A stretch of DNA of 64,000 bases from a virus. The notes beneath the pieces were generated by a model. That model ran no database searches. It was not told the DNA's origin and saw nothing but the letters and a program-made list of their open reading frames with translations. The stretch is from IMG/VR virus record IMGVR_UViG_3300010400_000001, positions 62,001-126,000 of that record; one strand, written 5' to 3'. Position 1 is the first letter of the stretch. Every line of letters begins with the position of its first letter. Shown piece after piece: positions 32,160-48,548 of this stretch. The translations under genes were made by a program, and so were the position numbers.

Positions 32160-33008
32160 ATGCTCCAAGTCAAAACTCGAGGCGGTGTGTTCGGTCCCGG
32201 CGGCTACGGCGGCGGGATCTTCGACGGATCGCAAATGGGATTCGGCGGCCTCGGCAGCGTGGCGTTCGAGCAAGCAGCCGCGGGTATCGGCGCCGACACG
32301 GGCGCCTTCAAGTGGTGCAGCAAGGCGTCGCCGTGCCCTACGGGCGACCCGCGAGTCAGCGCACTTCAGAAGGCTCTGAACACGGCGCTCAAGGCGCACG
32401 GTTTCAAGCCGCTGACGGTCGACGGGAAATTCGGAACGAGCACGTGCGGCGCGATCTCGTGGGCAGGAAATCTCCCCCAGTCCGATCCGCTCTTCACGAC
32501 TGCCGGTGTCGAGTACATGACGCCCGCCTACCTCGTCGATAGCTCGGGCCAGCCAGTCTGCAAGTCCTTCACCTACCCGACGAAGGTCGGATCGACGACG
32601 CCGTACATTCCCCCGTCGACGTTCCGCTCGGGCCTCCCCTGGAAAGAGGTGAGCCCGGAGACGGCGACGGTGCAGCGGAACATAAATAACGATCTCACGC
32701 AGCACGGCTACGATCCGATCAGCGAGAGCGGCATGCTCGACGCGCCGACCTGCGGCGCGATGCGGGTCGCGAAAGACGAGTGGGGTATGGACTACCTCAC
32801 GGCGTACGGCGGTAACTGCCAGGAGTTTCAGGCGCCGCGAAAGCACGCGCAGCCAGTCGTCGTGACTCCGACGCCGACTCCGGCGCATGAAGACGAGCTG
32901 CCGCACGCAGTCAGCTCGAAAAAGAGCGGCGTCTCGACGGCGTGGGTGATCGGTGGTCTTGCCGTCGCCGCCGGCGTCGCAGGTCTCTACGCCGCACGAA
33001 AGAGGTAG
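32160..33008 (+). CDS. Membrane-anchored protein with two Cys-containing PG-binding-like modules, 282 aa
   Basis: Module one reads VSALQKALNTALKAHGFKPL, then DGKFGTSTCGAI; module two reads ATVQRNINNDLTQHGYDPIS ... DAPTCGAM. Both resemble peptidoglycan_binding_1 repeats, with an added Cys at the end of each and a partner in CKSF or CQEF. A Pro-rich linker (PTPTPAHED) leads to a membrane segment at about 260-278 with basic end ARKR. It may anchor the virion or an ejection complex to the cell wall. Confidence 0.62.
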   Translation: MLQVKTRGGVFGPGGYGGGIFDGSQMGFGGLGSVAFEQAAAGIGADTGAFKWCSKASPCPTGDPRVSALQKALNTALKAHGFKPLTVDGKFGTSTCGAISWAGNLPQSDPLFTTAGVEYMTPAYLVDSSGQPVCKSFTYPTKVGSTTPYIPPSTFRSGLPWKEVSPETATVQRNINNDLTQHGYDPISESGMLDAPTCGAMRVAKDEWGMDYLTAYGGNCQEFQAPRKHAQPVVVTPTPTPAHEDELPHAVSSKKSGVSTAWVIGGLAVAAGVAGLYAARKR

Positions 33009-33017
33009 CCTCCCCCC

Positions 33018-33662
33018 ATGTCGAACTTCGGTCCCATCGCGTACGAGGACATGAGTCAGCTAAATGCTGAGTGGGGACAGCAGCGTCCGCCGATGGCGGG
33101 CCTCGGAGGGCTCCTCGCGGGTCTCGGCGCCGTCGCGCCCATGGCGCAGCACGAGTACGTCGACGTGTCCTTCCTCAATGCTCGGCTCCGTCCGATCGAG
33201 CCGAAGCGGTTCGGCATGGGCTACGGGATCGGCAACGGCGTCGGCAACGGCAGCATCTCCGGGAACAGTCTCGGCATCGTTGCCGGGCTCGGCGGAGACC
33301 CAGACTACCCCTGGCGGGAATACAGCTCCGACACGAAGGCGCTTCAGGAGCAGACGAACGAAGCGCTCATCGCGAATGGGTATGCTCCTATCACGGCCGA
33401 CGGGAAGCTCGGCCCCGCGACGTGCGGCGCTGTCCGCGCGATGTGCGCGACCTTGTCGCCACCGTGCGACACGCCGGGAACGTGCCAATCGTTCACGGCG
33501 CCGAGCCGCCCGGGCGCGATCGTGAAGACTTCATCGTCGAAGCCCTCCGTCGCGCGAGCGAGCATGATGGGCGGCGGCACGAACTGGCTTCTCATCGGCG
33601 GCGCCATCGGAGCGATCGCGATCGGCGGCGCGCTCATGTTCAAGGCGTCGAAAAAGCGATGA
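33018..33662 (+). CDS. Membrane-anchored protein with one PG-binding-like module, 214 aa
   Basis: After a Gly-rich middle (GYGIGNGVGNGSISGNSLG) comes a module ALQEQTNEALIANGYAPITA with DGKLGPATCGAV and later CQSF, closely related to both modules of the previous gene. The end is a membrane segment (WLLIGGAIGAIAIGGALM) and KASKKR. It overlaps the next gene by four bases. Probably a partner of the preceding protein. Confidence 0.62.
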   Translation: MSNFGPIAYEDMSQLNAEWGQQRPPMAGLGGLLAGLGAVAPMAQHEYVDVSFLNARLRPIEPKRFGMGYGIGNGVGNGSISGNSLGIVAGLGGDPDYPWREYSSDTKALQEQTNEALIANGYAPITADGKLGPATCGAVRAMCATLSPPCDTPGTCQSFTAPSRPGAIVKTSSSKPSVARASMMGGGTNWLLIGGAIGAIAIGGALMFKASKKR

Positions 33663-34012
33663 CGACACCGGTAGAGGCGATCCAGCAGCGTCTCGGTGTG
33701 CCGCGGAGCGGCCACTGGGACGGCGTCACGCGCGGCGCGCTCGTCGCCTACCAGCAGAGCCACGGCCTATCGCCGAGCGGGCATCCCGATCCGGCGACGC
33801 TCGCGAGCCTCGGCTACTACAGGCCCGACGATCTCTTCACTCAAAAGTGGGTGAGCTACCTCGAAGGCGGAGACAAGCCCGGAACCTTCGGTCGCGATCT
33901 CAAGACGTCGATCGATCAGGTGCCGCGCTGGGCGTGGGCGACGCTCGCCGCGAGCTTTTCGGTCTTCGCCTACATGGCGTACCGAACGGATCGAAAGCGA
34001 GAAGGGCACTGA
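33659..34012 (+). CDS. Peptidoglycan-binding-domain protein with membrane segment, 117 aa
   Basis: The first 55 residues (VEAIQQRLGVPRSGHWDGVT, then LVAYQQSHGLSPSGHPDPAT) follow the classic PG_binding_1 pattern, without the extra Cys of its neighbours. A membrane segment (WAWATLAASFSVFAYMAY) and a basic end follow. Three adjacent genes carry this domain, which points to a cell-wall contact at entry or exit. Confidence 0.68.
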   Translation: MTTPVEAIQQRLGVPRSGHWDGVTRGALVAYQQSHGLSPSGHPDPATLASLGYYRPDDLFTQKWVSYLEGGDKPGTFGRDLKTSIDQVPRWAWATLAASFSVFAYMAYRTDRKREGH

Positions 34013-34899
34013 TGTTCGTCGAAAAGCTCTCCTCGATCTACGACGAGCTCGCAGGTCCTCCCGGGATCCCGTGGGCGGGCCTCACTGCCGACGGGCACGG
34101 CATCAGCGAGAACGGCTACGACCCGACGTACATGGACTTCATGTTGAAGGCGGGGTCGGAGTTCTTCGGCGTGATCGGGGAGATGAGTCCGGAGTTCGTG
34201 TCCAGATATCGAAACCTTCGTGGCGACGAGGCGCGCGCGAGCATCAGTCGCCTGACTCTCGTCATCGAGCAGGTCGGCGCCGACGTGTGGCAGGCCGTGA
34301 AGGAGGGCGACTGGGACGCTTTCGTGGCCTTGCCGCGCACGACGACGATGGACGCGCTCGCGACCGTCGCGGCGGCGAGCACGAACGGCGCATTCCTCCA
34401 TTACGACGGGGTGATGGAAGGCGCGATGCGCGCCGGCAAGATGAAGCCCGAAGAGGTGATGGGGCACGCCCAGTCGGTGACGAAGATCTTTCAAACCTTC
34501 GTCGACCTCGACAAGAACGGCCACCTCGACAAGTTCAAAAAAGGCGCGCCCGTTGCGGGGCTCGGAATTGCGCCGGCAATCATCGGGGCGATCGCAGCAG
34601 TCGGCGTCATGCTCCTCATCGCGACCTGCTACCTCTTTTACGTCTTTCAGATCGCTGCGCCCGCTCAGAAGAAAGCGCTCGAGTGGTGCGACAAGGTCGC
34701 CAAGAGCGGAACGAACGACGAGATCATGGCGTGCGTGAACGCCGCGAACGAATCGGCGAAGACTGGAAACCCGAACCTCGGGGGAATGTTCGGCTCTGCC
34801 GTGGCGCCGCTCGTTGCCGTCGCCGCAGTAGGTGGGGCGCTCTACCTCGCTCCCTACATCATCAAGTCCTTTCGGCAGCTCAAGACGGCAAAAGCGTAA
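34012..34899 (+). CDS. Late integral membrane protein, 295 aa
   Basis: The soluble, helical N-terminal 180 residues are followed by membrane segments at about 184-213 (GLGIAPAIIGAIAAVGVMLL onward) and 266-285 (VAPLVAVAAVGGALYLAPYI), with a small Cys-containing loop between them (CDKVAK, ACVNAA). ATG 34012 overlaps the preceding end by one base. Could form a virion membrane pore or channel. Confidence 0.58.
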   Translation: MFVEKLSSIYDELAGPPGIPWAGLTADGHGISENGYDPTYMDFMLKAGSEFFGVIGEMSPEFVSRYRNLRGDEARASISRLTLVIEQVGADVWQAVKEGDWDAFVALPRTTTMDALATVAAASTNGAFLHYDGVMEGAMRAGKMKPEEVMGHAQSVTKIFQTFVDLDKNGHLDKFKKGAPVAGLGIAPAIIGAIAAVGVMLLIATCYLFYVFQIAAPAQKKALEWCDKVAKSGTNDEIMACVNAANESAKTGNPNLGGMFGSAVAPLVAVAAVGGALYLAPYIIKSFRQLKTAKA

Positions 34900-34915
34900 G
34901 GAGTTCGATCGGCCC

Positions 34916-35260
34916 ATGTCGGAGACCATCTACTCACGTTGGCGTCCCGATAGCGGGGGCTACGATTATTTCGTCGCCCCGGGCTCGGTGAACATCAACG
35001 ATGACCTCCCGACTCCAGAGCTCGACCCAGCAACGAAGATTGGCGTTCCCTCGATCGAGGCGGGGAGGCCGGTTCCTTCGGGCGCCAGGGCCGCGGGCTC
35101 GGGCGATGAGGCCATCGGTCTCGTCGCTCCAGTCGACGAGCGGCGCATCGTGAGACGCGTACGGTCTCTCGCGGGCATGGACGCGCCGGGGGGCGGGATG
35201 AAGTGGGCCATTGGTCTCGCTGCCGCCGCGGGCCTCATCTGGTACATAAAGAGTAAGTAA
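34916..35260 (+). CDS. Late tail-anchored protein, 114 aa
   Basis: AAGGAG lies about 13 bases before the start. Residues 93-110 (MKWAIGLAAAAGLIWYI) are the membrane segment followed by KSK. The head is polar with many Pro, Asp and Arg. Same topology as its neighbours. Confidence 0.58.
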   Translation: MSETIYSRWRPDSGGYDYFVAPGSVNINDDLPTPELDPATKIGVPSIEAGRPVPSGARAAGSGDEAIGLVAPVDERRIVRRVRSLAGMDAPGGGMKWAIGLAAAAGLIWYIKSK

Positions 35261-35815
35261 ATGGCCCTTCGAGTCGTCGACACCAAGGAAGCAGCGGCGA
35301 AAACGTTTCGCACGTTTCACGATCGCGCGCCCGAGGAGGAGATCGAGCTCCCGTTCACGTGGCCCCCGCGGCTCCAGGAAGTCGGCGAGGGCAAGGCCGA
35401 GATGTACCGATCGAACAAGTGGAAGAAGAATCGATCGGAGCACGACGATTACAAGCACGTCGTCGAATCGAACCGCACAGTCTACGTGGAGCCGGGCTTC
35501 CTTCGCGAAGGCGTCCGCCCGTACAGGCCCATGAAGCTCTACGGCCCGACCTTGAGCTTCGAGGGGACGATGCCGAAGTACTTCACGTTCTTGGGTCCTC
35601 TCCTCGGAGTGCAGCTCCGTCTCTACGACGAGAGCGAGACGCTCCCGTCGGGCGGCAAGGAGCTCTACGAAGTCAGGATCGCGCGCGCGAAGCTCGGCGC
35701 CGCCAAGCACCCGGATACGAACGAAACCTTTCTCTTCGTGTACACGCCGGACGGCGTTCACATGATCCTCACGGGCGAACGTCTTTCGATCGAGAAGGAC
35801 GGCATCGCTGGATGA
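35261..35815 (+). CDS. Soluble late protein, 184 aa
   Basis: A beta-rich protein with aromatic and charged residues (VVESNRTVYVEPGFL, YFTFLGPLLGVQLRLYDES, FLFVYTPDGVHMILTG). It lacks a membrane segment, unusual for this module. It sits before the 637-aa membrane protein and overlaps it by four bases. May be a minor capsid or vertex protein. Confidence 0.55.
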   Translation: MALRVVDTKEAAAKTFRTFHDRAPEEEIELPFTWPPRLQEVGEGKAEMYRSNKWKKNRSEHDDYKHVVESNRTVYVEPGFLREGVRPYRPMKLYGPTLSFEGTMPKYFTFLGPLLGVQLRLYDESETLPSGGKELYEVRIARAKLGAAKHPDTNETFLFVYTPDGVHMILTGERLSIEKDGIAG

Positions 35816-37725
35816 TCTATTCCCCGTCCATGAATATCTGGACGCCCTATCGCGGCCTAGGCGGAACTCCGGGTCGAATGCCGATCCCCCCGGGCTCGGG
35901 GACGTCGACGAGCCCTGCAGATCTCGCCCGCGGATTCATTAGCCCGGCTGACGCTACCGCGGCGCGGGACCACTTCAGGGAGGCCGTCGGCGACATGCCG
36001 TGGGTGCCGACGGCGCCGACTGAGCTCGGCCCGTGGGCAGCCGAGCAGGTGAAGATCTTCTCTTCGAAAGAGATGACCCAGGGGATCGAGAACGGGAAGC
36101 GCGTCTTCGATCAGAAGATGTCAGCCGGCGGAACCGTGCTCGCCGAGACGTTCCCGCCGATGACCGAGGGCATGATCGAACAGTGGTCGAGGGACTACGT
36201 CGAAAAGAACGGCTTCCCATCGAGTCCAGAGTCGGCCATCGCGATGGGGCGCGCGTTCGTCATCGCGAACTGCGACCAAATCGGGCTCCCGCCGGAGTTC
36301 ATCGCGGCGAGCGATCTCATTCAAAACTTCCCGCAAACGCCAGAGACGGCAATCGGCTGGTCGATTTCGCTGAGCTCGTATTTTCTGAGCTCGTACGGCG
36401 TTCCGATCGTGGACGTCACGGACGTCTCGAGCTTCCTCTCGGCGAGCGCGCGGGCGGCCATCGCGCAGGTTGCCCCCGGCGTGCCCTTCACGCTCTTCGA
36501 TACGACTTTCGAGGCGCTCTCCGACGGGCAGCTCTCGGGCGAAGAGGCGAAGGGCATCGTGATTGGCGCGGCGGGGTTCATCGGCGGCCTCATCGGGCAG
36601 GCGTTTGGTCTCCCGGCTCCGATCGGAGCGCTCCTTAGCCAGCTCCTTGTCGGCGGCCTGGTTCAAGCCTTCGGCTGGGGCCCGAGCGATTCGGATAAGC
36701 TCCGCGCAGCGCAATCGGCGGCGGCGACAGCGGCGCGGCAAGCTCAGAAGGAGTGCACGGCGCTCTCGACGGCGCTCTGGCTCGAGTACCAGCAGTACTG
36801 GGATGCGATCACGCGAGATCTCACGGCCTCGATTCACGAGAACCAGGATTGGCTCGTGCAGGGCTCGTGTAACAGCACGAACGGCATTCGTCTCTTCGGA
36901 TCGACGACGCTCGACTACGTGCGAGATCCGATGGGAAACCCCATCGTGTCGAATCCCGACGAAGTGAAGAAAGGAGCGAAACCAAAGTACCGGAAGTATC
37001 CGTACACGCTGACGAGGGAGTGCAGGGAGGGGAAAGGCTGCCCGTACCTGTCGCTCTCGAGCGATCCCATCGTGAGTCGAGACAAGTTCGCGCTGTCTCC
37101 TTCCGAGCTCAAGCGCGTGCCGTCGATCTCGATTGGTGGTCGCGGTTGCGACGCGGCGAGTGCGCTCGCGTTCTGGGGTGCTCAGCGGTACGTGACGCCG
37201 ATGCACGTGGTCTACGCCATGGGAGGCAAGACCCAGAAGTGGATCGAGCCATCGACGTACACGGAGACCCAGCTCACGAGTCACAACGTCGTGCCCTGGG
37301 ATCAGATCCTCCATTCGGACTCGGACTACCTGAACTACATCGGCTACGTCGGCACCTACGATTTCGGAACGAAGGTGACCGCCTGCATGGCGCCGACCTG
37401 GGCGTCCTTCATGTTCCGCTCACTGGAGCAGGCCGCCGCGTCCGTGGCTCTCGTCCAGCGAGATCTCGCTCGCACGGTGAGCGCGGCAGTCACGGAGTAC
37501 GGGATCCAGTACCACCTCGAACAGGCGGCGGACGTGAAGTGGCAGGTCGCGAGCGCGGCTCAAAAACGCGCGGCGGCTCGCGCGGTCGCCGCCAAAGCCG
37601 CGGCCTACCGGCATAGCATCGTCGAAGCCCGTCGCCGCGGCGCGCGGACGGCAGATCTCGTAAACTACGGGCTCCTCGCCGCGGGGAGCGCCGCGCTCCT
37701 CGGAGTATTTGCGGGCAAGCGATGA
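35812..37725 (+). CDS. Large late membrane protein, 637 aa
   Basis: The first 240 residues are soluble with a Thr/Ser/Glu-rich fold. A Gly-rich hydrophobic stretch follows at about 240-285 (GIVIGAAGFIGGLIGQAFGL, then IGALLSQLLVGGLVQAF), which could be one or two re-entrant or transmembrane segments. The middle has several Cys (STNGIRLFGS, CREGKGCPYL, RGCDAASALA). The chain ends with Ala/Arg helices and a membrane segment (LLAAGSAALLGVFAGKR). A pore or DNA-delivery protein is conceivable. Unknown family. Confidence 0.5.
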   Translation: MIYSPSMNIWTPYRGLGGTPGRMPIPPGSGTSTSPADLARGFISPADATAARDHFREAVGDMPWVPTAPTELGPWAAEQVKIFSSKEMTQGIENGKRVFDQKMSAGGTVLAETFPPMTEGMIEQWSRDYVEKNGFPSSPESAIAMGRAFVIANCDQIGLPPEFIAASDLIQNFPQTPETAIGWSISLSSYFLSSYGVPIVDVTDVSSFLSASARAAIAQVAPGVPFTLFDTTFEALSDGQLSGEEAKGIVIGAAGFIGGLIGQAFGLPAPIGALLSQLLVGGLVQAFGWGPSDSDKLRAAQSAAATAARQAQKECTALSTALWLEYQQYWDAITRDLTASIHENQDWLVQGSCNSTNGIRLFGSTTLDYVRDPMGNPIVSNPDEVKKGAKPKYRKYPYTLTRECREGKGCPYLSLSSDPIVSRDKFALSPSELKRVPSISIGGRGCDAASALAFWGAQRYVTPMHVVYAMGGKTQKWIEPSTYTETQLTSHNVVPWDQILHSDSDYLNYIGYVGTYDFGTKVTACMAPTWASFMFRSLEQAAASVALVQRDLARTVSAAVTEYGIQYHLEQAADVKWQVASAAQKRAAARAVAAKAAAYRHSIVEARRRGARTADLVNYGLLAAGSAALLGVFAGKR

Positions 37726-37871
37726 CGCCGGAAGAGAAAAAGGCAGAAGCCGAGCGCGCCGCCGAGCTTCACAAGACGGAGCTCGCGATGATCCGCTTAA
37801 ACTTCATCGGGCTCATGGGACTCGGCCTCATGGGTCTCACCTCGTACCTCCTCTTCTGGAGGCGCCGGTGA
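37722..37871 (+). CDS. Tail-anchored miniprotein, 49 aa
   Basis: A short gene fitted between two ATGA/GTGA overlaps. A charged helix (PEEKKAEAERAAELH) is followed by one membrane segment (MIRLNFIGLMGLGLMGLTSY) and a basic end, WRRR. Overlaps on both sides support it as real. Same layout as the larger virion-module proteins. Confidence 0.7.
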   Translation: MTPEEKKAEAERAAELHKTELAMIRLNFIGLMGLGLMGLTSYLLFWRRR

Positions 37872-38926
37872 GTTACCAGGGCCTCGGCCTCGATTTTTTC
37901 AATCAGCCGTGCGGCGGCTATCCGCTAAATACCGCCGACTACCTCTACGGCGGGATTGCGCTCTCGACGATTCAGAACGTCGTCGAGGATACGGTGACAG
38001 TGCTCCTTCACGGCGGCGGAGACTACGTCGCGCTCTGCGACAATAAGTACTTCGCCTACGTTCCTGGGCATCCCGAGATTGCCGCGATCTTCGGAAGCCG
38101 AGAAGAGGAGGCGCGGCTTCTCGCGGGCGCAGTGCTCTCGACGATGCTGACTCAAGAGCGAGTACGACCTGGCACGCATCGGACGACGTTGCAGTTTGCG
38201 ACTGACATCGTCACCGAAATCACGAAGACGCTCTACAACGGAGGCGATCCGTCGGCGTGTGAATCGACGTTCGCAGAATCCTTTCTCCGCTGGCAGGGCC
38301 TCTCTGCGCTCTCGGTGCCGACGTCGCTCGCGAAAACCGGTTGGTGCGAAAAGGCGCTCTCGCTTCCCTGGTCGAGTGACGGGCGGCACGTGACGTCGTG
38401 CGAGGCGCAGTCGATCTGCAAGGTGACGACGGCCGCGGACGGAAAGCCCGTCTACTATCCAGTGCCGGCGCCGAGTCCGACAGATCCGGGCGTCGCCGTC
38501 AAAGCAGCAGGAAATAAGCCCGAGCCGCCGCCATCGAAAGCAGAGATAGAGGCTGCAGTCCAAAAGAAGATGGGCCAAACCGGCGAGTCGCTTGCGGAAG
38601 CGGAGCTCTCTCAGGAGTACCTCGAGCTCACGAGCTACTTGAAGGCGCTCACCGAATCGCGAACATGGCTTCGTATGGCGCTCGGGCTTTCGAAGAAGGC
38701 GACCGACAGGGACGTGATGAACACACTTCGGTCCCGCGGCATCTCCGCGAGCGAAGTCCTCGATTGGTTCGACGGGTGTAACTTCGAAACGAATTGCTTT
38801 CGCCGCGAGATGAACGTGGCGATCGGTGAGTCGACCGTGCGCTTGAACGATCGGCGCGCAAAGTTCGCCGTGCTGGGCCTCGCCGCAGTCGCCACGGCGT
38901 TTTTCTTTTACAAGGAGCTCCGATGA
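37868..38926 (+). CDS. Late tail-anchored protein, 352 aa
   Basis: The GTG start overlaps the preceding stop. The soluble domain has several Cys pairs that may form disulfides (CDNKYF, CESTF, CEKALS, CEAQSICK, CNFETNCF). A Pro-rich linker (PVPAPSPTDPG) divides it. The end is a membrane segment (AVLGLAAVATAFFFYKEL) with R. Probably exposed on the particle or in the periplasm. Confidence 0.58.
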   Translation: MSYQGLGLDFFNQPCGGYPLNTADYLYGGIALSTIQNVVEDTVTVLLHGGGDYVALCDNKYFAYVPGHPEIAAIFGSREEEARLLAGAVLSTMLTQERVRPGTHRTTLQFATDIVTEITKTLYNGGDPSACESTFAESFLRWQGLSALSVPTSLAKTGWCEKALSLPWSSDGRHVTSCEAQSICKVTTAADGKPVYYPVPAPSPTDPGVAVKAAGNKPEPPPSKAEIEAAVQKKMGQTGESLAEAELSQEYLELTSYLKALTESRTWLRMALGLSKKATDRDVMNTLRSRGISASEVLDWFDGCNFETNCFRREMNVAIGESTVRLNDRRAKFAVLGLAAVATAFFFYKELR

Positions 38927-39300
38927 TGTCGCTTGGGCTCGTGAAGCTCGCTACGGCGACGCCGGTCGGCGATCCGCCGGAAGTGCGCGCGGCGCGGCGG
39001 CTCGAGTACCTCCTCGTGCTCTTTCAGGAAGCGCACGTCGATCCCGACAAGACGCCTCAGGGCGACATCGTGTACGCGCTCGCGACGCCGTACGAGCAGC
39101 GCGGGCTCACTTCGGCAGACATAGAACGCTGGATCGACGAATGCGACCCGGTAAAGAAGCCCCCCTGGGACGAGGTCGCCTGCTTTCGCGGGAAGGTCAG
39201 GGCCGCGATGAAGGGGCAAATGGGCCTAGGAACGAAGGTGGCGCTGATTGGCGCAGGAGCGTTTTTCGCGGGCTTTGTGCTCTCCCGGGCCCGCCGTTAG
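38923..39300 (+). CDS. Late tail-anchored protein, 125 aa
   Basis: ATG overlaps the preceding stop. Helical soluble part with two Cys, then a membrane segment at about 103-120 (TKVALIGAGAFFAGFVLS) and RARR. It is the last gene before a promoter-like region. Confidence 0.6.
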   Translation: MMSLGLVKLATATPVGDPPEVRAARRLEYLLVLFQEAHVDPDKTPQGDIVYALATPYEQRGLTSADIERWIDECDPVKKPPWDEVACFRGKVRAAMKGQMGLGTKVALIGAGAFFAGFVLSRARR

Positions 39301-39337: not shown

Positions 39338-39471
39338 CGTTTCTAGTTAGCAGGCGCCTTCCCGACGCCTCGCAGTCCCTAGTGGTTTGCGAGAGAAGTC
39401 GAGTGAGAGGCAAGCAAAGAGCATACGGGCGAGCGTTTCCGATCCGCGAGGCGGATGTCGGCTCGTACCGA

Positions 39472-41889
39472 ATGACGTCGCCAGGGCGCTATCGGTCAAA
39501 CCCGATGGGCGTGACGACGCTCTCTGCCGTCAACGGTCCCGGAGCGTACGCGGCGACTCGAGGGCTCTCTCGCGCTGAGCGAGTGAAGCGTGCTCGCCGC
39601 CTCATGAAACGGAGCAGAAGCATGAAGGGCAACAAGGTCCACCGAGCGGAGTTCGTTCGCCGCATGAACGCGAACAGCGGTCGCATGACGAGCTCAGCGG
39701 CGCGAAAGCGCGCTGGCAAGCGCCTCGCCGCATTTCAGGCGGCTCGCCGCCGAGGTCTCTCTGTCGAATCGGCAAAGAGATCCGCTGCTCGGAAGGTCCC
39801 GCTGAAAAAGCGTCGCCGGAGCTACCGCCGTAACGATCCGACGCAAGTCGCAACGCCGGCGTACCGCTCGGGGCACGAGCGGATCTACGGAAAGAAGGCG
39901 CAGCGACGCCGCGAGGCTGCCGCGAAGCGGAAAGCGCGCAAGGCCGCGATGGCCGAGCGCAAGCGCACTCGCCGGTCGGCCGCGAAGGCGCGCCGGTCCG
40001 CCGCGACGGCGAAACGGAAGGCACGCGCCGCCGCGCGCCGCGCCGCGATGACGCCGGAGAAACGAAGGGCGCTCGCCAAGCGCCGTCGCAAGGCAAGCTT
40101 CCCGCGCCAGTACAAGAAGGTGCGCGCCCGCCGAGGCAAGATGCGTCGAGTCAGGACCTACTACGGTCCGTACAAGCGCGCGCGCGCGAAAGACCCGCGA
40201 AGTGGCCGCACCCGGTACACGTACATGTACCGAGCGAAGAAGGGCCGTCGCCGAAAGATCCCCCAATGGGCCGTTGCCGGTGCCGTCAGTGCTCGCGACT
40301 ACAAGTCGTCGTCCGAGTACGGGCGTGCCCGGGAGCGGATTGCCCGTAGACGTAAAACAGCCGCCGCTCGCGTTGAGCGGAGCGGAGATGCGTTCGTTCC
40401 GAACGCGGGAGCAAAGAAAGTGGCAAGACGAAAGAAGCGAGGACACAAGAAGACCTCCCGCAAGGCGGGACGCCGCAGGATCCGCAGGGTGAAGCGCAGG
40501 TCGAGCTCACGCAGGCGAGCGAGCCGCGTGGGGCGCCGGAAGGCTCGTCGTCGTCCGCGTCGGAAGACGCGTACGAAGTCGCGTCGCAGGGCAAAGACGA
40601 GGCGCCGAACGGCCAAGCGCAGGCGCTCGAGCGCCAAGCGCCGTACGCGTCGGGCGCCGCGGCGGATCGGTCGTCGCAAGGTCCGTAGGCTTCGCCGAGG
40701 GATCTACCTCGTCGCAAACCGTCGCCGGCGTCGTCGTCGCAAGGTGATGGCGGAAAACCGGAGGACGAGGCGTCATCACCGCCGGAGGCCGCGCCGGTTG
40801 CGCGCAAACCGTCGTCGCCGTCACTACGAGGAGAATCGTAGGCGAAGGCGTCACAGTCGGAAGCGCTACACTGCGAATCGTCGTCGGCGGAGCTACCGCA
40901 GAAACGGCTTCACTGCCGATCTCGGGACCATCGCCAAGACTGGGCTCAGCGTGCTCTTCGGGTTCTTCCTGCACAAGGCGGCAACCGGAGCGCTCGTTGC
41001 GGCTCTGACTTCCACGGACGCGACGAGCGGCGCCATTACCTTCGCGGGTATGGCGACAGTCGGCGCCGACGGGAAGCCGACGATGCTCGCGATGTGGCAA
41101 AAGCCGGCAGCCGGCGCCATCACTGGTCTCATCGCCATCGCGGGCGTCAGCGCCGTGAAGCAGGTGAAGGAGTCCACGAGAATGTCGGTTTCGGCCGGCG
41201 TGGTCGTGTCTCTCTTTCAGAGCGCCGTTCACTCGGCACTCGCGATGCTCGACCAGCCGAAGGTGCTCTCGTATCTCGAGGGCTACCAGAACAGCGCCGC
41301 CTACTCGCTACGCGGCACTCGCGGTCGCCGGCGTCGGGCAGTGCACGGTCTCGGCGTCGCCCGAAACGCGACCTCGATCATGCCGCAGTACGCGCCCGTT
41401 GGAACCTTCCAACAGGCGGCCGCTGGCATGGGCGAGTACTTCGCGCAGAAGGGCGTCGGCGAGTACTTCGCGGGCGCTGGAGTCGAGGGCGTCGGTCACT
41501 ACGAGAAGGCGGGTCCGCTCGCGCTTCTGCCGACGACGAGTCACATGGGACAGCTTCCGATCGATGACGGCATCCGTCCCGATTCGAATCTCGACCACGT
41601 GATGGATCTCGCGGAGTCCGCAGCTGGCCTCGGTGGCGGCGGCGGATATCGTCAGGCGGCAGCAGGCATGGGCCAGTTCCGTCAGGCAGCCGCGGGTCTC
41701 GGCGAGTACTTCTCGGCCGCGCCGCAGGACGGTGGGTTCAAGGAGTTCTCGGTGCCGACGCAGAGTCAGTGGATCCCGTCCGGGCCTCTCTGGGCCGGGA
41801 CGACTCCCGCTGAAGCCGCGTACACGGAGAGCGAGCTCCCCGCGGGGATCCTCCAGGGTCCCGGCGGAAACGGAGTGCTCTCGGGCTGA
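39472..41889 (+). CDS. Protamine-like DNA-condensing protein with membrane segment and GEYF repeats, 805 aa
   Basis: Residues 1 to about 460 are extremely rich in Arg and Lys with many Ala, Ser and Gly, like a protamine or histone tail, and should bind DNA. Hydrophobic stretches follow (TIAKTGLSVLFGFFLHKAAT and later GAITGLIAIAGVSAV, VSAGVVVSLFQSAVH) that likely cross a membrane. The C-terminal part repeats QAAAGMGEYFA, GVGEYFAGAG and AAAGLGEYFS. The design suggests a link between genome and internal membrane or capsid. I chose ATG 39472; GTG 39382 and ATG 39505 are possible. Confidence 0.6.
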   Translation: MTSPGRYRSNPMGVTTLSAVNGPGAYAATRGLSRAERVKRARRLMKRSRSMKGNKVHRAEFVRRMNANSGRMTSSAARKRAGKRLAAFQAARRRGLSVESAKRSAARKVPLKKRRRSYRRNDPTQVATPAYRSGHERIYGKKAQRRREAAAKRKARKAAMAERKRTRRSAAKARRSAATAKRKARAAARRAAMTPEKRRALAKRRRKASFPRQYKKVRARRGKMRRVRTYYGPYKRARAKDPRSGRTRYTYMYRAKKGRRRKIPQWAVAGAVSARDYKSSSEYGRARERIARRRKTAAARVERSGDAFVPNAGAKKVARRKKRGHKKTSRKAGRRRIRRVKRRSSSRRRASRVGRRKARRRPRRKTRTKSRRRAKTRRRTAKRRRSSAKRRTRRAPRRIGRRKVRRLRRGIYLVANRRRRRRRKVMAENRRTRRHHRRRPRRLRANRRRRHYEENRRRRRHSRKRYTANRRRRSYRRNGFTADLGTIAKTGLSVLFGFFLHKAATGALVAALTSTDATSGAITFAGMATVGADGKPTMLAMWQKPAAGAITGLIAIAGVSAVKQVKESTRMSVSAGVVVSLFQSAVHSALAMLDQPKVLSYLEGYQNSAAYSLRGTRGRRRRAVHGLGVARNATSIMPQYAPVGTFQQAAAGMGEYFAQKGVGEYFAGAGVEGVGHYEKAGPLALLPTTSHMGQLPIDDGIRPDSNLDHVMDLAESAAGLGGGGGYRQAAAGMGQFRQAAAGLGEYFSAAPQDGGFKEFSVPTQSQWIPSGPLWAGTTPAEAAYTESELPAGILQGPGGNGVLSG

Positions 41890-42064: not shown

Positions 42065-42868
42065 ATGGCAAAGCTCACAAATGTGAGAGAGCGTGTTCAC
42101 CAACCGTTCTTCGACACGCTCGTCCGCACTTCCGGTCTCGGAGGCACCATTCAGGCCGTCAACCAGCGCACGTCGCTCTTCACGAACGCCGCGCGCCAGG
42201 ACGACATCAACGCCCTGACGAACCTCCAGAACGGGTCGACGCTTCCGTCCGACCAGAGCCACGTGACGCTCGCGCTCCGCGTCTTCACTTGGTTCCGCAA
42301 TCCGCAGATCCGCGCGAGCGGTTTTGCGAACGGCGCCATCAAGAACAACGGCGACTTCTCCCAAGCGGGAGCAGCGGCGTTCTTCTCGCAAGGTGGCGTG
42401 GATCCGAACGGCGCGATCGCCGGCCCCGGTCAGTTCAACTACCCGGGTTCGATCGAGGACGTCTACCGCCTCTACTGGCAGGCGGAAGAGCAACTTCACT
42501 GGAGCTATGGCACCGGTGAGAAGTTCTCGATCACGAACATGCCGACGAAGTACTTCCCGGACGGCGGCGGCCTCTGGGGCGACCTCGGCGGTTCCTCGGA
42601 TCTCATCCACTTTAACAACGGAACGCCCGACCACACGGCGATCCTCCGGCTCGCACGCGCGATCCTTCTCCCGCCCCGGCAGAACGTCCGGTGTGTGGCG
42701 GAGATTTCGCCGCTGCCCGACGGCGGAAACGCGCAGCTTGCAGGGACGACTGTCCAGGGCAACGGCCGCAACATGCTGTCGCTCCAGTCGAACCTCAACA
42801 CGGCCGACGGGATCAACAAGGTGATTCAGTTCACCTTCGACGGTCTCTTCGCCCGCGACGTTCAGTAG
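42065..42868 (+). CDS. Putative major capsid-type protein 1, 267 aa
   Basis: AAAGGAAA precedes ATG 42065. The protein has no membrane segment and is rich in Asn, Gly, Phe and Thr with beta-strand patterns (VTLALRVFTWFRNPQIRASG, TGEKFSITNMPTKYFPDGGG, NKVIQFTFDGLF). This composition suits a beta-sandwich virion protein. It is the first of three unrelated beta-rich proteins and is flanked by strong RNA hairpins. The frame is also open upstream to ATG 41913, but that part is low-complexity Arg/Ser/Pro. Confidence 0.5.
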   Translation: MAKLTNVRERVHQPFFDTLVRTSGLGGTIQAVNQRTSLFTNAARQDDINALTNLQNGSTLPSDQSHVTLALRVFTWFRNPQIRASGFANGAIKNNGDFSQAGAAAFFSQGGVDPNGAIAGPGQFNYPGSIEDVYRLYWQAEEQLHWSYGTGEKFSITNMPTKYFPDGGGLWGDLGGSSDLIHFNNGTPDHTAILRLARAILLPPRQNVRCVAEISPLPDGGNAQLAGTTVQGNGRNMLSLQSNLNTADGINKVIQFTFDGLFARDVQ

Positions 42869-42940: not shown

Positions 42941-42962
42941 GGTACTCCTAACGGAGGCACAA

Positions 42963-43949
42963 TTGGCTGATCTGCAAACGATTCTGGCTCAGCTCCAGCA
43001 GACCGCTGGAATGGCTGTCGGCAATGCGCGCGACGCCTTGAGAGCGGCTCAAGGCACGCAGGCCGACCAGGCGCTCGTAAGACAAGAGCTCGCGCGGCAG
43101 TCGCGCGATCTTCAAAATCTCGCCAACGCCTTGACCGGCGTCGAGGCATCGACGAAGGGCGCTGGCTACGGAAACGGCAACGTGAACGATCACGTTCGCT
43201 ACATCGAGTCGATCCCGGGCCGCAGGATCCCGTTCGACTTCATCGTCTCGATCCCCATCATCGCTAACTCCATTCAGGAGGCGCAAGGAACGAAGAGCGT
43301 GTCGCAAGACGGGCCCTTCGTCGCCGTCGCGAGGTTCGCGGCGTTCCAGTCGGCGTTCCAGTTCACCCGGCGTGACCCGGTCACGCAAGAGCTCGGCTCG
43401 TTTCAGGGTCGCTCCTTCGGCAGGTATCGCCCGGTCTCTTCCGCCTGGGATCTTGCCGATGCGTCTGCGGGAGTCTTTCAGCCGACGACTGGGATTGCGT
43501 CACCCGGCACGGGCGCTCCGATCGTGGCGAGTCCGTCCAACATGTCGAGCTTTCGCACGATGGAGTTCGACGGGACGATCGATTTCCTGAATCAGGGCTC
43601 GGGCTTCTTCCGGAATAACGACCCTGTGCCGAGCGCCTTCTATTCGGAGTCGATCAACGCGCCGTTTCAGCTCGGAGCCTTGGACTTTTTCGAGCGTGGC
43701 GAGACGCTTCAGTGGAAGGTACGGCCGACGCACGTGAATAACCCTCCAGCGGGTAACCTCTCGGGGTATGCTGCGGGTGGGCTCTTCCCATTCCTGTCGA
43801 GCCAATACGACGTGCAAGAAGGCGTGAACGACCAGCTCGATCCCGATGCGACGACGGATCCGATTCAGAGGCTCCCTGACGGGATCCTCATCCTCGGCTT
43901 CCACGGCTTCAGGATCGTCCAGCCACCGGGCCCAGTCCGGATGACGTAA
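42963..43949 (+). CDS. Putative capsid-type protein 2, 328 aa
   Basis: The start is TTG 42963, because CGGAGG lies four bases in front and no ATG with a site is near. A helical opening (LQTILAQLQQTAGMAVGNAR) leads to a beta-rich body with YIESIPGRRIPFDFIVSIPI, SFRTMEFDGTIDFL and ILGFHGFRIV. No membrane segment. It resembles a major or minor coat protein in composition and position. Confidence 0.5.
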   Translation: MADLQTILAQLQQTAGMAVGNARDALRAAQGTQADQALVRQELARQSRDLQNLANALTGVEASTKGAGYGNGNVNDHVRYIESIPGRRIPFDFIVSIPIIANSIQEAQGTKSVSQDGPFVAVARFAAFQSAFQFTRRDPVTQELGSFQGRSFGRYRPVSSAWDLADASAGVFQPTTGIASPGTGAPIVASPSNMSSFRTMEFDGTIDFLNQGSGFFRNNDPVPSAFYSESINAPFQLGALDFFERGETLQWKVRPTHVNNPPAGNLSGYAAGGLFPFLSSQYDVQEGVNDQLDPDATTDPIQRLPDGILILGFHGFRIVQPPGPVRMT

Positions 43950-43959: not shown

Positions 43960-44865
43960 ATGGCTGGCTCCCCTTACATGACTCCAGACGAATTCTCCCG
44001 CATCGGCGTTCGTCTGCCGCCGGTCGCGGCGCCGCGGAGCGCAGGCGTCCTCATGCCGCGGCCTGGGGACCGCCTGCCGCCGCCGCCCTACCCGGGAGAA
44101 GCGACGATCGAAGGCTGCGGCGCTCAGCGCGTGCAGCTCGCGGGAGGCGCTCTCAATACGCTCCTCGTGCATCCGGAGATTACGCCGTTCGAGCGGCTCT
44201 TCCGACGCCTCCCCGAAGAGGGAATGTTCCTCGATACGGTAAACCCCGAAAACCCGTTCACGTTCGAGCTCGGCGCGTTTCGGGCGCCTGACACGTTCAC
44301 GCTGATGCTCTTCGATCTCCGTCCCGACATCTACCGCTTCAGTGGTGTCGATCCGGGAGACACGGTGCCGGTCGAAGCGCGTCGCTTCTCGTCGGTCTTG
44401 GGCTTTCAGATCAGCGTGGACCAGCGTCAGCCCGGTAACCTCGTCTACCAGCTCGATCCGGTGCCGATTCAGAGCTTCCCCGAAGCGTTCACGAATCCGA
44501 TCGGAGGAAACGAGTTCCCGCAAGCGCTCGCGAATGCAATCGGTGCGGGCAACAATTCGCGCTTCAACATCGCGCAGGCGACGAGCTTCGCGAGCGCATC
44601 GGGCGCGGGGAGCTCGCTTCTTCCTCAGAGGCCGACTCGTCCGGGCGCGCTCAGCATTCCGTACACGCTCTACATCAGGCCGGGGCAAACCTTTCAGGTG
44701 CGCTGCGTGGTGTTCAATCCCGTGCCGAGCCCGATCGCGTTCATCGAGTACGACATTGCGGGTACGATGATTCCCGATCAGTGGCTGACGACGATGACGG
44801 AGTGTTTGAAGCCGCTCTCGCATGCGAGCGGGGGGCCGGGTTCGCTCGGCGGAGGCCCCAGGTGA
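43960..44865 (+). CDS. Putative capsid-type protein 3, 301 aa
   Basis: AAGGGGG lies five bases before ATG 43960. After a Pro-rich arm (residues 15-45) comes a beta-rich body: FTFELGAFRAPDTFTLMLFD, RFSSVLGFQISVDQ, LYIRPGQTFQVRCVVFNPVP, IAFIEYDIAGTMIPDQW. This is typical of a coat protein. The tail is Gly/Pro-rich. Soluble, no membrane segment. Confidence 0.5.
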   Translation: MAGSPYMTPDEFSRIGVRLPPVAAPRSAGVLMPRPGDRLPPPPYPGEATIEGCGAQRVQLAGGALNTLLVHPEITPFERLFRRLPEEGMFLDTVNPENPFTFELGAFRAPDTFTLMLFDLRPDIYRFSGVDPGDTVPVEARRFSSVLGFQISVDQRQPGNLVYQLDPVPIQSFPEAFTNPIGGNEFPQALANAIGAGNNSRFNIAQATSFASASGAGSSLLPQRPTRPGALSIPYTLYIRPGQTFQVRCVVFNPVPSPIAFIEYDIAGTMIPDQWLTTMTECLKPLSHASGGPGSLGGGPR

Positions 44866-44881: not shown

Positions 44882-44987
44882 AGACCAGCCGAACGCTTGT
44901 CGCTCTTCTGCGGGTTATGATGATCGCACCCCCACCGGACAACGGGGAATGCCAAGTCATGCTCGGGAAACGGCGTTCGGTTGGTCT
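44882..44987. ncRNA. Candidate structured RNA between 44865 and 45017
   Basis: AGACCAGCCGAACGC (44882-44896) pairs over 15 positions (one G-T) with GCGTTCGGTTGGTCT (44973-44987). Next inward, TTGTC (44898-44902) pairs with GACAA (44938-44942), and CCCC (44930s) can pair with GGGG. This gives a branched fold of about 106 bases in the only real gap between late genes after the coat-like group. A UUUA follows. It could be a regulatory or packaging RNA. Confidence 0.45.
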
Positions 44988-45016
44988 TTAGGGCTGACAT
45001 CAGCGGGGAGCGCGTC

Positions 45017-45778
45017 ATGGTGATGCGGTCCTACACGGAAAACTGGGGCCGCGGCTCGGCGTGGGACGAGCATCCGATGATCGTTGCTCCGCCCGGGACG
45101 CATCTCGGGCAGATGGACGCGCAGAGTCTCTTTTCGGAAATCACGACGGCGCTCTCCTTGAAGCCCATCGGCGTCTACACGCCTTGGGCGACTCGCGAGG
45201 GCGACGTCTCGTGGACGGAGATCCACAATCCCGACACGAACATCATGCTCTGGGGTCTCACGGACGCGGCGGTGAACGCCGTCCCCGAGGTGACATTCGG
45301 TTCGCCCCTTCCCTTCGTTGCGATTCTCACCAAGGCGCCGCTCTCGGTCGAACGCGTACGCGGGCTCTGGAACGGAACGGCGTACGCGCCGTACGAGACG
45401 CAGGCAGTCTACCGTCAGGACGACGCGAAGTCGGTGCCGACGCTCTACTTCCTTCATTGGGGAGAGCGCATCGACATGTCGAAGCTCCCCGGGCAGGTGC
45501 TGCTTCTCGAGCCCACGGCGTCGAAGGTGGACGGAGCACTCGTCTTCGCGGCTCAGATCCCGTCGCAGGGATCGACGACGAGAGAGCCCCCGTCTCTCTC
45601 CTTCGATCAGGCGTTTCAGTCGACGGTGCCGGTCGTGCCCGGGCCCGCGCCGGCTCCAGTGCCCGCGCCAATTCCGATCGTGCGAGCGCCCGAAGAGAAG
45701 ATGAACATCGGCATTCCAGTGGCCGTTTTTCTCGGGAGCGCTGCTCTCGGCTTCGTCATCTGGAGGGCAAGGCAGTGA
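45017..45778 (+). CDS. Late protein with C-terminal membrane segment, 253 aa
   Basis: GGGGAG lies seven bases before ATG 45017. The head is beta-rich (TNIMLWGLTDAAVNAVPEVT, KVDGALVFAAQIPSQGST). A Pro/Ala linker (PGPAPAPVPAPIPIV) leads to a membrane segment near the end (IGIPVAVFLGSAALGFVIW) with RARQ. Probably a spike or vertex protein anchored in the virion membrane. Confidence 0.58.
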   Translation: MVMRSYTENWGRGSAWDEHPMIVAPPGTHLGQMDAQSLFSEITTALSLKPIGVYTPWATREGDVSWTEIHNPDTNIMLWGLTDAAVNAVPEVTFGSPLPFVAILTKAPLSVERVRGLWNGTAYAPYETQAVYRQDDAKSVPTLYFLHWGERIDMSKLPGQVLLLEPTASKVDGALVFAAQIPSQGSTTREPPSLSFDQAFQSTVPVVPGPAPAPVPAPIPIVRAPEEKMNIGIPVAVFLGSAALGFVIWRARQ

Positions 45779-45791
45779 CAAGGAGATCGGC

Positions 45792-46055
45792 ATGTACGGC
45801 CTAGGACAAGAGGTCATTTTCGATCCGAGCTCGATACGGCCGAGGTCGCATCTCGTTCGGCTTCCGACTGCGACGCCGGCGCCGCCGAGGGTGCGGCTTC
45901 CTGACGCGACGCCGACAAAGCCCTTGCTGCCGATGATCGTGCCGGCAGAGGAAGAAGTGCCTCCGCCGGCGGAAGAGCGGAACATGATGCCCTACTACAT
46001 TGCAGGAGGCGTCCTCGCGCTCGGCGCAGTCGTGCTCCTCATGAGGAGACGGTAG
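45792..46055 (+). CDS. Late tail-anchored protein, 87 aa
   Basis: A polar, Pro-rich head is followed by a membrane segment at residues 67-84 (YYIAGGVLALGAVVLLM) and RRR. Same design as its neighbours. No other motif. Confidence 0.6.
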   Translation: MYGLGQEVIFDPSSIRPRSHLVRLPTATPAPPRVRLPDATPTKPLLPMIVPAEEEVPPPAEERNMMPYYIAGGVLALGAVVLLMRRR

Positions 46056-46871
46056 ATGTCCTTCTCGGGCTCAGGGCTTGGCGGATTCCAAGGTCTCGGC
46101 GGCGTCATTCAGGCGACGAGGACGGGCGCGCAAGTGCTCGACAGGCCGTCCTGCGTGACGGCGGCTGAGCGCCAAGAGGCGAACGAGAACTGCCAGAACG
46201 TGTCTCTTCACGGGCTCGGCACGATGGTCGCGCGGGCGCCGATGACTGGGCGCTTCGCCGGTCGAAGCCCGTGCGAAGTGAAGGAGTTCCCTGATTGCCC
46301 GACGCCGACGTGCATCGACGAGCAGTCGTCGGCAATGATCGTCGGTTGCCTTTCGGGACAGGGGTATCCGGGTCTCGATTGCAACGATCCGACCGTCAGC
46401 ATGTACCTCTACTTCATGACCATGCTGCCGTTCTGTAAGACGCCGCCGCTCCCGCCCGGCTGCGTGCCGAAGGAGATGGCGCCGATCGTTCAGTACTGCC
46501 AGAAGTACCCAGAGAAGAACGGGCCCGACAAGAAGCTCAACGCGCTCTGCTGGGGCGTGACGCACGACGCGGCGTACTGGTCGGCGCTCCAGAAGATGAA
46601 AGTCTGCGCGCCGCCGAAGCTCCCGTCGGCGACGCCGGCGCCGGTAAAGCCTCCCCCGCCGCCGACGATGACGAAGCCGCCGGCCTACAAGCCTCCGCCG
46701 GCTCCTCCACAGGAAGTGCCGCCACTTCCGCCCGTGCATGAGACGAGCGCGCCTCCCGACGTCGAGGAGCCGCCCGAGCATCGGGAATCGGCCATGATGG
46801 GCATGTGGGGCATTCTCGCTCTCCTCGCCGTAGGAGGAGGCGGCTACTACCTCTACCGCCGGTACAAATGA
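46056..46871 (+). CDS. Cys-rich late protein with membrane segment, 271 aa
   Basis: GAGGAGACGG precedes the ATG. The head has about ten Cys (RPSCVT, ENCQN, PCEVK, DCPTPTCIDE, GCLS) that could form disulfides in an extracellular domain. A long Pro-rich stalk (PPPPPTMTKPPAYKPPPAPP) leads to a membrane segment (MGMWGILALLAVGGGGYYLY) with RRYK. A receptor-binding or surface protein is plausible. Confidence 0.6.
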   Translation: MSFSGSGLGGFQGLGGVIQATRTGAQVLDRPSCVTAAERQEANENCQNVSLHGLGTMVARAPMTGRFAGRSPCEVKEFPDCPTPTCIDEQSSAMIVGCLSGQGYPGLDCNDPTVSMYLYFMTMLPFCKTPPLPPGCVPKEMAPIVQYCQKYPEKNGPDKKLNALCWGVTHDAAYWSALQKMKVCAPPKLPSATPAPVKPPPPPTMTKPPAYKPPPAPPQEVPPLPPVHETSAPPDVEEPPEHRESAMMGMWGILALLAVGGGGYYLYRRYK

Positions 46872-47065
46872 ACCTGAACCTCGTCGCCATCGCGGGGGTG
46901 CCGCCGTCGCCTGATGGCGGGCTCATTTCGTGCACCGGCGAAGGGATCGGCGTCGTCGAAAGTCCCTTTGCGGGGACGACTGCGGGTCAGAAGTTCCTGT
47001 TCTTTGGCAGCTTCACGACAGGGTTTCTCGTCGGCTTTTTCTTCGCCAGGAGAAACGTCCGGTGA
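46868..47065 (+). CDS. Small late membrane protein, 65 aa
   Basis: ATG overlaps the preceding stop. Residues 43-60 (FLFFGSFTTGFLVGFFFA) are the membrane segment, followed by RRNVR. Its end overlaps the next gene by four bases. Confidence 0.6.
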   Translation: MNLNLVAIAGVPPSPDGGLISCTGEGIGVVESPFAGTTAGQKFLFFGSFTTGFLVGFFFARRNVR

Positions 47066-47286
47066 AAGATCCACTCGGGAGCGCCGCGACAGCGGCGGAA
47101 ATCCTCGGGCCGGCGATGGATGGCGTCGGCGGCCCGCTCGGCCTGGTCGGCCGCGTCGCGGGGCTCGGCGCGGACGAGCTCGACGCTGGGATCCCGGGAT
47201 GGTCGTGGTTTTTGATCGGCATGGTCGCCGGGAGCGCGGCCATGTACTTTATGAAGGACCGCGTGGAGGCTTTCGTCGAGCGCTAA
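47062..47286 (+). CDS. Late membrane protein, 74 aa
   Basis: GTG start overlapping the preceding stop. A hydrophobic Gly/Val-rich middle (GPLGLVGRVAGLG) and a stronger membrane segment (WSWFLIGMVAGSAAMYFM) come before a charged end. Function unknown. Confidence 0.55.
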   Translation: MKDPLGSAATAAEILGPAMDGVGGPLGLVGRVAGLGADELDAGIPGWSWFLIGMVAGSAAMYFMKDRVEAFVER

Positions 47287-47319
47287 GCGGCGGTATTCTC
47301 GGGTAGGAAGAGGATTCAG

Positions 47320-48282
47320 ATGCAAAACGGAATGGGCGCATACTTCGGCAGCACGAAAATCATCCAGGGCGCCGCCGGTCTCGGTGACGGGCCGCTTCAG
47401 GCATTCGCCGACGGAGTCGTCGGCGGGAGCGCCGAAAATCCCGACATGCCGGGTCCGCTCTTCGCCTACCACGACGGGAGCCTCGGCGACGCAGACGGGC
47501 AGCTCCTCGCATTCGCGGACGGAGTCGTCGGCGGCGCGCCGCCGGCCTACCAAATGCCGGGCGAGCTTCTCGCCTACAAGGACGGAAGCCTCGGCTGGTA
47601 CGACCAGGCGGCGCAGGGGATCGGCGCGAACGACGAAGAAGTCGATCCGACGAGCTCGTGGCACGACGGGATCTTGGGGAGCCGCACGGTGAACATCCCC
47701 GGTGGGACGCTGATGGCGTACCACGACGGAAGCCTCGGGGCGTACGCGCGCGCGATCGGAGCAGCAGAGCAAAACGTGCTCGACCTCGGCGACGCCAACG
47801 TCCTCAAGGAATTGAAGACGGCGATGGCGCTCATCGCTCCCGAGAACACGGCGACGATGGAAGCGCAGAAGGTTTACACGCCCGATTGGTACACGAGCGG
47901 CGTGTGGGATCCACAAGCGAGCCTCCTCTGGCAGTACATCGTGTCGAAGACTGCGGCGTTCAAGGGCAAGACCGTGTCGGCCGACATGGGCGCGAACTCG
48001 TACCCGAACGCCACCGGCATAGGCTTCATGGTGGCGGCGCTCTCGGCTCCCCAATCGGGCACGTACGGTCCCGAGTGGACCAAGAACAATCTCCCCGCGC
48101 TCTATGCGTGGTTCACGTCGGGCGGCGGCACGGTGCTGCCTCCCTACCTGTCGCTCGCGGATAAGACCAAAGGCGTTCGCGCGGCGACGAGTGAGATGAA
48201 GATGAGCACGGTCGCGATGTACGGCCTCGGCGCAGTCGCGCTTCTCGGCGTCGTACTCGTGATGCGAAAGAAGAGGAGATAG
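47320..48282 (+). CDS. Late protein with DGxxG repeats and C-terminal membrane segment, 320 aa
   Basis: The N-terminal 150 residues contain repeats FADGVVGG, AYHDGSLG, FADGVVGG, AYKDGSLG, SWHDGILG and AYHDGSLG, about 20-30 residues apart. The middle is mixed with aromatic residues. The end is a membrane segment (VAMYGLGAVALLGVVLVM) and RKKRR. AGGAAGAGG precedes the ATG. The repeats may form a beta-solenoid or bind calcium through Asp. Probably a surface protein. Confidence 0.6.
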   Translation: MQNGMGAYFGSTKIIQGAAGLGDGPLQAFADGVVGGSAENPDMPGPLFAYHDGSLGDADGQLLAFADGVVGGAPPAYQMPGELLAYKDGSLGWYDQAAQGIGANDEEVDPTSSWHDGILGSRTVNIPGGTLMAYHDGSLGAYARAIGAAEQNVLDLGDANVLKELKTAMALIAPENTATMEAQKVYTPDWYTSGVWDPQASLLWQYIVSKTAAFKGKTVSADMGANSYPNATGIGFMVAALSAPQSGTYGPEWTKNNLPALYAWFTSGGGTVLPPYLSLADKTKGVRAATSEMKMSTVAMYGLGAVALLGVVLVMRKKRR

Positions 48283-48284
48283 CC

Positions 48285-48548
48285 ATGTATACCGGAGTAG
48301 GAGCAGCCCCAGATTTGCGTCAGAGGTACCGTACCCGTCGCCGCCGCCTCGTCCGCCTTCCGTCGGCGACGCACGGCATGGGCGAGTACTTCGCGCCCGC
48401 AAGCGGCATCGGTGAGTACTTCGCAGCCAATGGCCTCGGCGTCGATGAAGCGCCGCTCGCCGAAAAGAGCTGCAACGCGATGGTGCTCGCAGTCGGGGCA
48501 GTGAGCCTCGGCGCGGGCATGATCCTCGCGATGGTCGCCTTCAAGTAG
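48285..48548 (+). CDS. Small late protein with GEYF motifs and membrane segment, 87 aa
   Basis: An Arg-rich start (RQRYRTRRRRLVRLP) is followed by HGMGEYFA and GIGEYFAANGLG, as in the end of the protamine-like protein at 39472, and then a membrane segment (AMVLAVGAVSLGAGMILAMV). The shared motif suggests a common partner or fold. It may assist the DNA-membrane link. Confidence 0.62.
   Translation: MYTGVGAAPDLRQRYRTRRRRLVRLPSATHGMGEYFAPASGIGEYFAANGLGVDEAPLAEKSCNAMVLAVGAVSLGAGMILAMVAFK

Follow-up and report, generated by a model that had tools for sequence, protein, structure and literature searches.

The gene at positions 39403-41889 (+) of the window analyzed here, a stretch of 64,000 nucleotides corresponding to positions 62001-126000 of the 136,226-base virus record IMGVR_UViG_3300010400_000001, encodes a protein of 828 amino acids (aa) composed of a protamine-like N-terminal half, three hydrophobic segments and a C-terminal tail with repeated G[LMV]G(EYF) motifs. 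To the reading of this protein as a major virion membrane protein of large tailless bacterial viruses with an internal membrane, linking DNA, membrane and shell, we give an even chance. The evidence comes from the composition of the protein, from its conservation and gene position in related virus records, and from a short glycine motif which it has in common with many other proteins of the putative structural block.

Coding status and conservation of the gene

The open reading frame (ORF) is stop-free throughout positions 39382-41889 (+). A preliminary description of this DNA placed the start at ATG 39472; the true start is 23 codons upstream, at GTG 39403, and was set by the element GRAFPIREADVGSY, conserved in the relatives, which share these extra N-terminal residues. 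With respect to two close relatives, substitutions at third codon positions exceeded those at first and second positions in all four parts of the protein, which argues for a coding sequence under selection. This bias was clearest in the N-terminal 330 and the C-terminal 208 residues and moderate in the polyarginine and transmembrane (TM) parts; protein identity was 83-89% in the tail, 75-79% in the N-terminal 330 residues and 53% in the hydrophobic part. A chance ORF or a wrong frame was ruled out by the conservation in relatives together with the codon-position pattern.

Scans of viral contigs retrieved 23 further related records (24 with this genome). The ends of the present record share 123 bases, which marks the assembled genome as complete; the terminal overlap was clean in six further records, three more had shared end sequence, and the complete genomes of the group measured roughly 111-182 kilobases (kb). 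End overlaps of about 120-132 bases correspond to the assembler word size and indicate circular or circularly permuted molecules, not true repeats. Two more relatives, matching in the putative capsid block, were located on contigs of metagenome-assembled genomes, one of 4.3 kb (L031, Methanomicrobiales) and one of 122 kb (L030, Pseudomonadota), a placement which reflects either a binning error or a host signal. For another relative, ARAGORN predicted adjacent tRNA-Pyl (cta) and tRNA-Ile (aat) genes in the left portion of the genome (L005:1323-1552).

A profile of the 828-aa protein found a relative in 23 of the 24 records, with one uninterrupted frame in each; the remaining record begins inside the next gene and is hence truncated at the locus. 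Because the fusion of the basic and membrane parts is uninterrupted in all 23, it is selected, with which cleavage after translation is still compatible. Gene order was fixed where the sequence suffices: the gene for the 828-aa type of protein lies directly upstream of those encoding the 267-, 335- and 301-aa proteins, the three most conserved, and this position supports the view that it is a virion structural gene.

Organization of the 828-aa protein

The basic half (residues 1-503; 39403-40911, +), which includes a conserved NPMGVTTLSAVNGPGAY element, contains 157 Arg and 50 Lys (207 basic residues, 41%) vs. 19 Asp and Glu, for a net charge of +188. Its most extreme part is a polyarginine region of ANRRRRR-type repeats (residues 347-503; 40441-40911, +) reaching 60% Lys and Arg: the best 100-residue window of the protein has 60 such residues vs. 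30 in the runner-up among the 126 predicted proteins of the genome. The extreme Arg/Lys content that led the preliminary description to call the N-terminus protamine-like is therefore real, although its length, then put at about 460 residues, was underestimated (about 500). In 18 relatives the basic half had net charges of +85 to +206 and the N-terminal part was 321-658 residues long. In its most distant relative (L012:6345-9005), a DUF6582-like domain lies inside this half. By charge arithmetic, about 720 copies of the 828-aa protein would offset half of the charge carried by the 136-kb genome, and about 1450 copies would offset it completely.

The basic half is followed by three hydrophobic segments, at residues 507-531 (putative TM1; 40921-40995, +), 567-586 (putative TM2; 41101-41160, +) and 595-615 (putative TM3; 41185-41247, +), and corresponding peaks (about residues 510-530, 570-585 and 600-612) recur in the average over 18 relatives. 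The C-terminal tail (residues 637-828; 41311-41886, +) has a net charge of -3 (0 to -17 in 18 relatives), and seven G[LMV]G motifs are found in its approximately 190 residues, in the order GLG, GMGEYF, GVGEYF, GVGHY, GLG, GMGQF and GLGEYF, of which three are of the GxGEYF type. The membrane segments and GMGEYFA-type repeats of the preliminary description thus correspond to three moderate hydrophobic peaks and seven G[LMV]G motifs; the sharing of the motif across virion proteins had escaped it.

This sharing was marked. In the 29 other proteins of the structural block (29773-54055), GLG was the most over-represented tripeptide (25 observed vs. 5.6 expected by composition), while outside the block G[LM]G was at expectation (16 vs. 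20.6). The enrichment was repeated in most relatives, being missing in L027 and weak in L022 and L026. In four records the profile of the 828-aa protein also matched GxGEYF-type repeats of further ORFs, and some relatives carry tight tandem copies of GLGEYF. In the single-TM proteins of the block, G[LMV]G lies almost always on the N-side of the TM segment. The tail is a multivalent version of a motif common to virion proteins, and GLG is possibly a virion-wide docking or processing motif. In the full-text literature no paper was recognised on a GLG motif, nor on a tailless family of 111-182 kb, a weak negative, as the texts covered included neither subscription papers nor preprints.

A processing function would fit a different reading, in which the 828-aa protein is a precursor that is cut after synthesis. 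One product would be a free core protein that condenses DNA, like adenovirus pre-VII and pre-mu, the other would be a membrane protein, and a virion peptidase would cut at the G[LMV]G motifs. The enzyme would perhaps be the transglutaminase-like (cysteine-peptidase-type) protein encoded at the start of the block (29773-30357, +), whose peptidase-type fold has Cys, His and Asp and which is related to the structural protein gp34 of phage SSIP-1; a short glycine motif present in many virion proteins could well serve as a cleavage site. We regard this reading as distinctly unlikely: the motifs lie in the tail, past the TM region, and almost never within the basic half or before the TM segments; the tight tandem GLGEYF copies of some relatives resemble multivalent binding more than processing; the flanks of the other loci, limited as they are, yielded no relative of the peptidase; and in no case are the two parts of the fusion encoded by separate genes.

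Type of virus and genome packaging

Profiles for Terminase_6N (PF03237) and Phage_portal (PF04860) matched none of the 24 records, and that for the HK97 capsid (PF05065) none of 15, with working positive controls; these were the only terminase, portal and capsid families searched. When 96 other ORFs of the genome were scanned against PHROG and Pfam, the families matched were those of replication, lysis, integrase and collagen-fibre proteins (from the best 25 of 109 PHROG families). A TM segment was predicted in 19 proteins of the structural block, in most cases at the extreme C-terminus and followed by a short basic tail, and the C-side was the more positive in 16 of the 19. Because terminase, portal and HK97 matches are absent, TM proteins are numerous, the transglutaminase-like protein is related to SSIP-1 gp34 and the gene order is that of internal-membrane viruses, a tailless particle with an internal membrane is most likely. 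The internal membrane invoked in the preliminary description therefore stands as the most likely arrangement, deduced from the 19 TM proteins and the lack of terminase and portal matches.

The same data bear on the possibility of an unusual tailed phage, in which the hydrophobic segments would not span a membrane and the 828-aa protein would be a soluble, basic internal head protein. The segments are indeed no more than moderately hydrophobic, and the collagen-repeat proteins match PHROG tail-fibre families (among the matches listed), but the profile results for PF03237, PF04860 and PF05065 and the many bona fide single-TM proteins of the structural block make such a virus very improbable.

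The FtsK/HerA-type packaging ATPase that is a trait of viruses with two vertical single beta-barrel capsid proteins (Helvetiavirae type) was not encountered: there was no FtsK or HerA profile match in this complete genome, and the P-loop proteins recognised in it were DnaB, a DnaC-like loader and a ChlI-like ATPase. An AAA protein (13411-14466) considered as a packaging ATPase was rejected, as it is the DnaC-like loader. Within the group, a HerA-like DUF87 match was obtained in one record only (G009:79441-79569, L134), with a sub-cutoff one in G021, and the absence of a recognised packaging ATPase thus need not hold group-wide. Because no such ATPase was recognised in the complete genome, the 828-aa protein may also have a part in genome capture when the particles assemble. 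A bolder version, which we consider speculative and unlikely, is that these double-stranded DNA (dsDNA) viruses of 111-182 kb encapsidate their genomes without any dedicated ATPase: the membrane-anchored polycation would condense the DNA and gather it against the future virion membrane, and the GLG copies on the tail and on about twenty other, small membrane proteins would act as a code recruiting the capsid shell.

Proposed role and membrane topology

In the role proposed for the 828-aa protein, the three helices would anchor it in the membrane of the particle; the basic half would be on the DNA side, neutralizing and holding the genome; the acidic-to-neutral tail would be on the opposite, capsid-facing side; and the repeated G[LMV]G(EYF) motifs would dock this tail to the shell or to the other membrane proteins carrying the motif. 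The protein would in this way join DNA, membrane and shell. Such a tether between DNA and membrane is plausible as a proposal that relies on predicted DNA binding, a predicted sidedness in the membrane and putative capsid folds. In the 828-aa protein the basic part is N-terminal and G[LMV]G C-terminal to the hydrophobic segments, the reverse of the single-TM proteins of the block, and with three TM segments its predicted sidedness would be the same as theirs; this reasoning from layout demonstrates nothing, as in C-terminal-TM proteins nearly all of the sequence is on the N-side anyway.

Several observations weigh against this role. The hydrophobic peaks are moderate (mean about 1.2-1.4, individual rows up to 2.1), and two TM segments instead of three would leave both halves on one side of the membrane. 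Net charge, compared with genome size to probe neutralization, showed no clear trend (rho 0.53, p 0.06, n 13, uncorrected for kinship; 0.2 with complete genomes only). Virion membership of the 828-aa protein is deduced from gene position. For the two neighbouring putative capsid proteins of 267 and 335 aa, the AlphaFold models (predicted local distance difference test, pLDDT, 63 and 43) were too weak to name a capsid fold, and in Foldseek searches neither had a match at E below 0.001. In PRD1-type assembly, moreover, the lumen of the vesicle is topologically the periplasm; with a PRD1-like vesicle, a +188 N-terminus on the DNA side must therefore be translocated, contrary to the positive-inside rule. 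Either assembly differs from the PRD1 type, or the basic half sits between membrane and shell.

The second option amounts to a separate explanation: the basic half would lie on the cytoplasmic face, that is, in the space between membrane and capsid, where it would bind both the shell and anionic lipid heads and serve as a glue or as a size-setting, tape-measure-like protein, with no contact with packaged DNA. Translocation of a +188 domain without an N-terminal signal is unlikely by the positive-inside rule if the vesicle is PRD1-like, and a long, extended basic chain could bridge capsid distances, as does PRD1 P30, an extended chain spanning such distances. Against this, the putative capsid proteins of this genome are mildly acidic (net -1, -7 and -4) and offer no obvious partner for the charge, the length of the N-terminal part (321-658 residues) shows no clear relation to genome size, and the GEYF tail would be in the lumen while the same motif of the single-TM proteins would not, unless their topology is opposite. 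We consider this explanation unlikely, though worth keeping in view.

If the tether between DNA, membrane and shell is correct, a DNA-condensing half joined to the virion membrane would be a concrete answer to how a vesicle holds a large genome, and perhaps also to how the genome is loaded without a recognised motor, a problem also posed by the small FLiP and Odin groups (PMC5894146). A short motif that recurs among the proteins of the same particle would amount to a simple code for assembly. The internal-membrane phages among those compared reach about 44 kb, so genomes of 111-182 kb would extend the group several-fold; these large, apparently tailless bacterial viruses form an apparently previously unrecognised group.

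Neighbouring genes

The three genes downstream of the 828-aa gene probably encode capsid proteins, to judge from their conservation and position. The 267-aa protein (42065-42868, +), the most conserved of the block and the putative major capsid protein, gave a beta-rich model; the 335-aa protein (42942-43949, +), the second putative capsid protein, a low-confidence model with an N-terminal helix and about 8 strands; and the 301-aa protein (43960-44865, +) is the third member. The best BFVD match of the 267-aa model was I1ZBH9 (211 aa; E 5e-3, probability 0.97, TM-score 0.34); 211 residues is also the length of SSIP-1 gp46 and gp35, and the identity of I1ZBH9 could not be confirmed. No sequence homology of this block to SSIP-1 or to any PDB or PHROG family was found. 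In one relative (L002, IMGVR_UViG_3300036861_001052), the 267-aa gene is split after codon 12 by an insert (9272-9966) containing a LAGLIDADG-type ORF and a sub-threshold group I intron match (9676-9933).

Most proteins of the upstream structural cluster (30357-39300, +) have a single TM segment right at the C-terminus with a short KKR-type tail, and carry their GLG motifs N-terminal to that segment; peptidoglycan-binding-like domains also occur in this cluster. The downstream cluster (44981-54055, +) is of the same C-terminal-TM type and includes a collagen-repeat protein (51991-53733), an 87-aa single-TM protein (48285-48548, +) with GMGEYFAP, the same motif as in the 828-aa protein, and a 320-aa C-terminal-TM protein (47320-48282, +) with GMGAYFGS. 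A DnaJ-domain protein is also encoded within the block (48772-49371).

Comparison with known systems

Very basic proteins thought to neutralize DNA have been described for PBCV-1 (A278L and A282L) and, as protamine-like proteins, for adenoviruses, asfarviruses and baculoviruses, and several viruses with such basic virion proteins have an internal membrane, according to the parts of the source used here (PMC3281028). Likened by their description in those parts, these core proteins may be analogues of the basic half; they differ in that they belong to eukaryotic viruses and that no membrane anchor is reported for them there (PMC3281028).

SSIP-1 is a tailless internal-membrane phage in which, as here, proteins of the virion region have a C-terminal TM segment, several of them with G[LM]G, and its structural gp34 is related to the protein encoded at 29773-30357 (E 1.1e-10). 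It differs in its size (43.8 kb), in a capsid block without sequence relation to the present one and in the mild enrichment of G[LM]G (z 1.9). An Arg-rich predicted protein of 47 aa, gp51 (L079:38488-38631), is encoded in its structural region. SSIP-1 gp44, SH1 VP12 and P23-77 VP15, with two or three TM segments, resemble the 828-aa protein in having several hydrophobic segments and in gene position, which in the 828-aa protein is directly upstream of putative capsid genes and in these three directly upstream of two capsid genes (annotated as such in SH1 and P23-77; in SSIP-1, gp45-gp46 are taken as capsid genes by position), and VP12, the major membrane protein of SH1, has been suggested as a scaffold for the capsid lattice. 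These three proteins differ in being short (94-241 aa) and in lacking a basic domain and a GxGEYF tail. Homology of the TM regions was not supported, as hhalign ranked VP12, VP15 and gp44 12th, 49th and 38th among targets and decoys, no better than the decoys, and a visually convincing likeness between loops (GPDGKPD vs. GADGKPT) likewise failed to beat them.

The closest arrangement was that of FLiP P7 (Finnlakeviridae, ASQ41223.1), in which a TM segment comes after an Arg-rich N-terminus (net charge +27). P7 has been proven to belong to the virion of its phage, which has an internal membrane and is likewise without a packaging ATPase, and its gene is directly before the major capsid gene, as the 828-aa gene is directly before the conserved putative capsid block. 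The resemblance is one of organization: P7 retrieved FLiP records only by tblastn, and the TM-region profile of the 828-aa protein scored P7 below decoys. FLiP P7 also differs in its length (84 aa), its one TM segment and the lack of a GxGEYF tail, and FLiP is a 9.2-kb single-stranded DNA virus with a double-barrel capsid protein. The arrangement, which the preliminary description held to be without parallel among characterised phages, thus has a small version in P7, with respect to which the size, the triple anchor, the GxGEYF tail and the dsDNA context are new.
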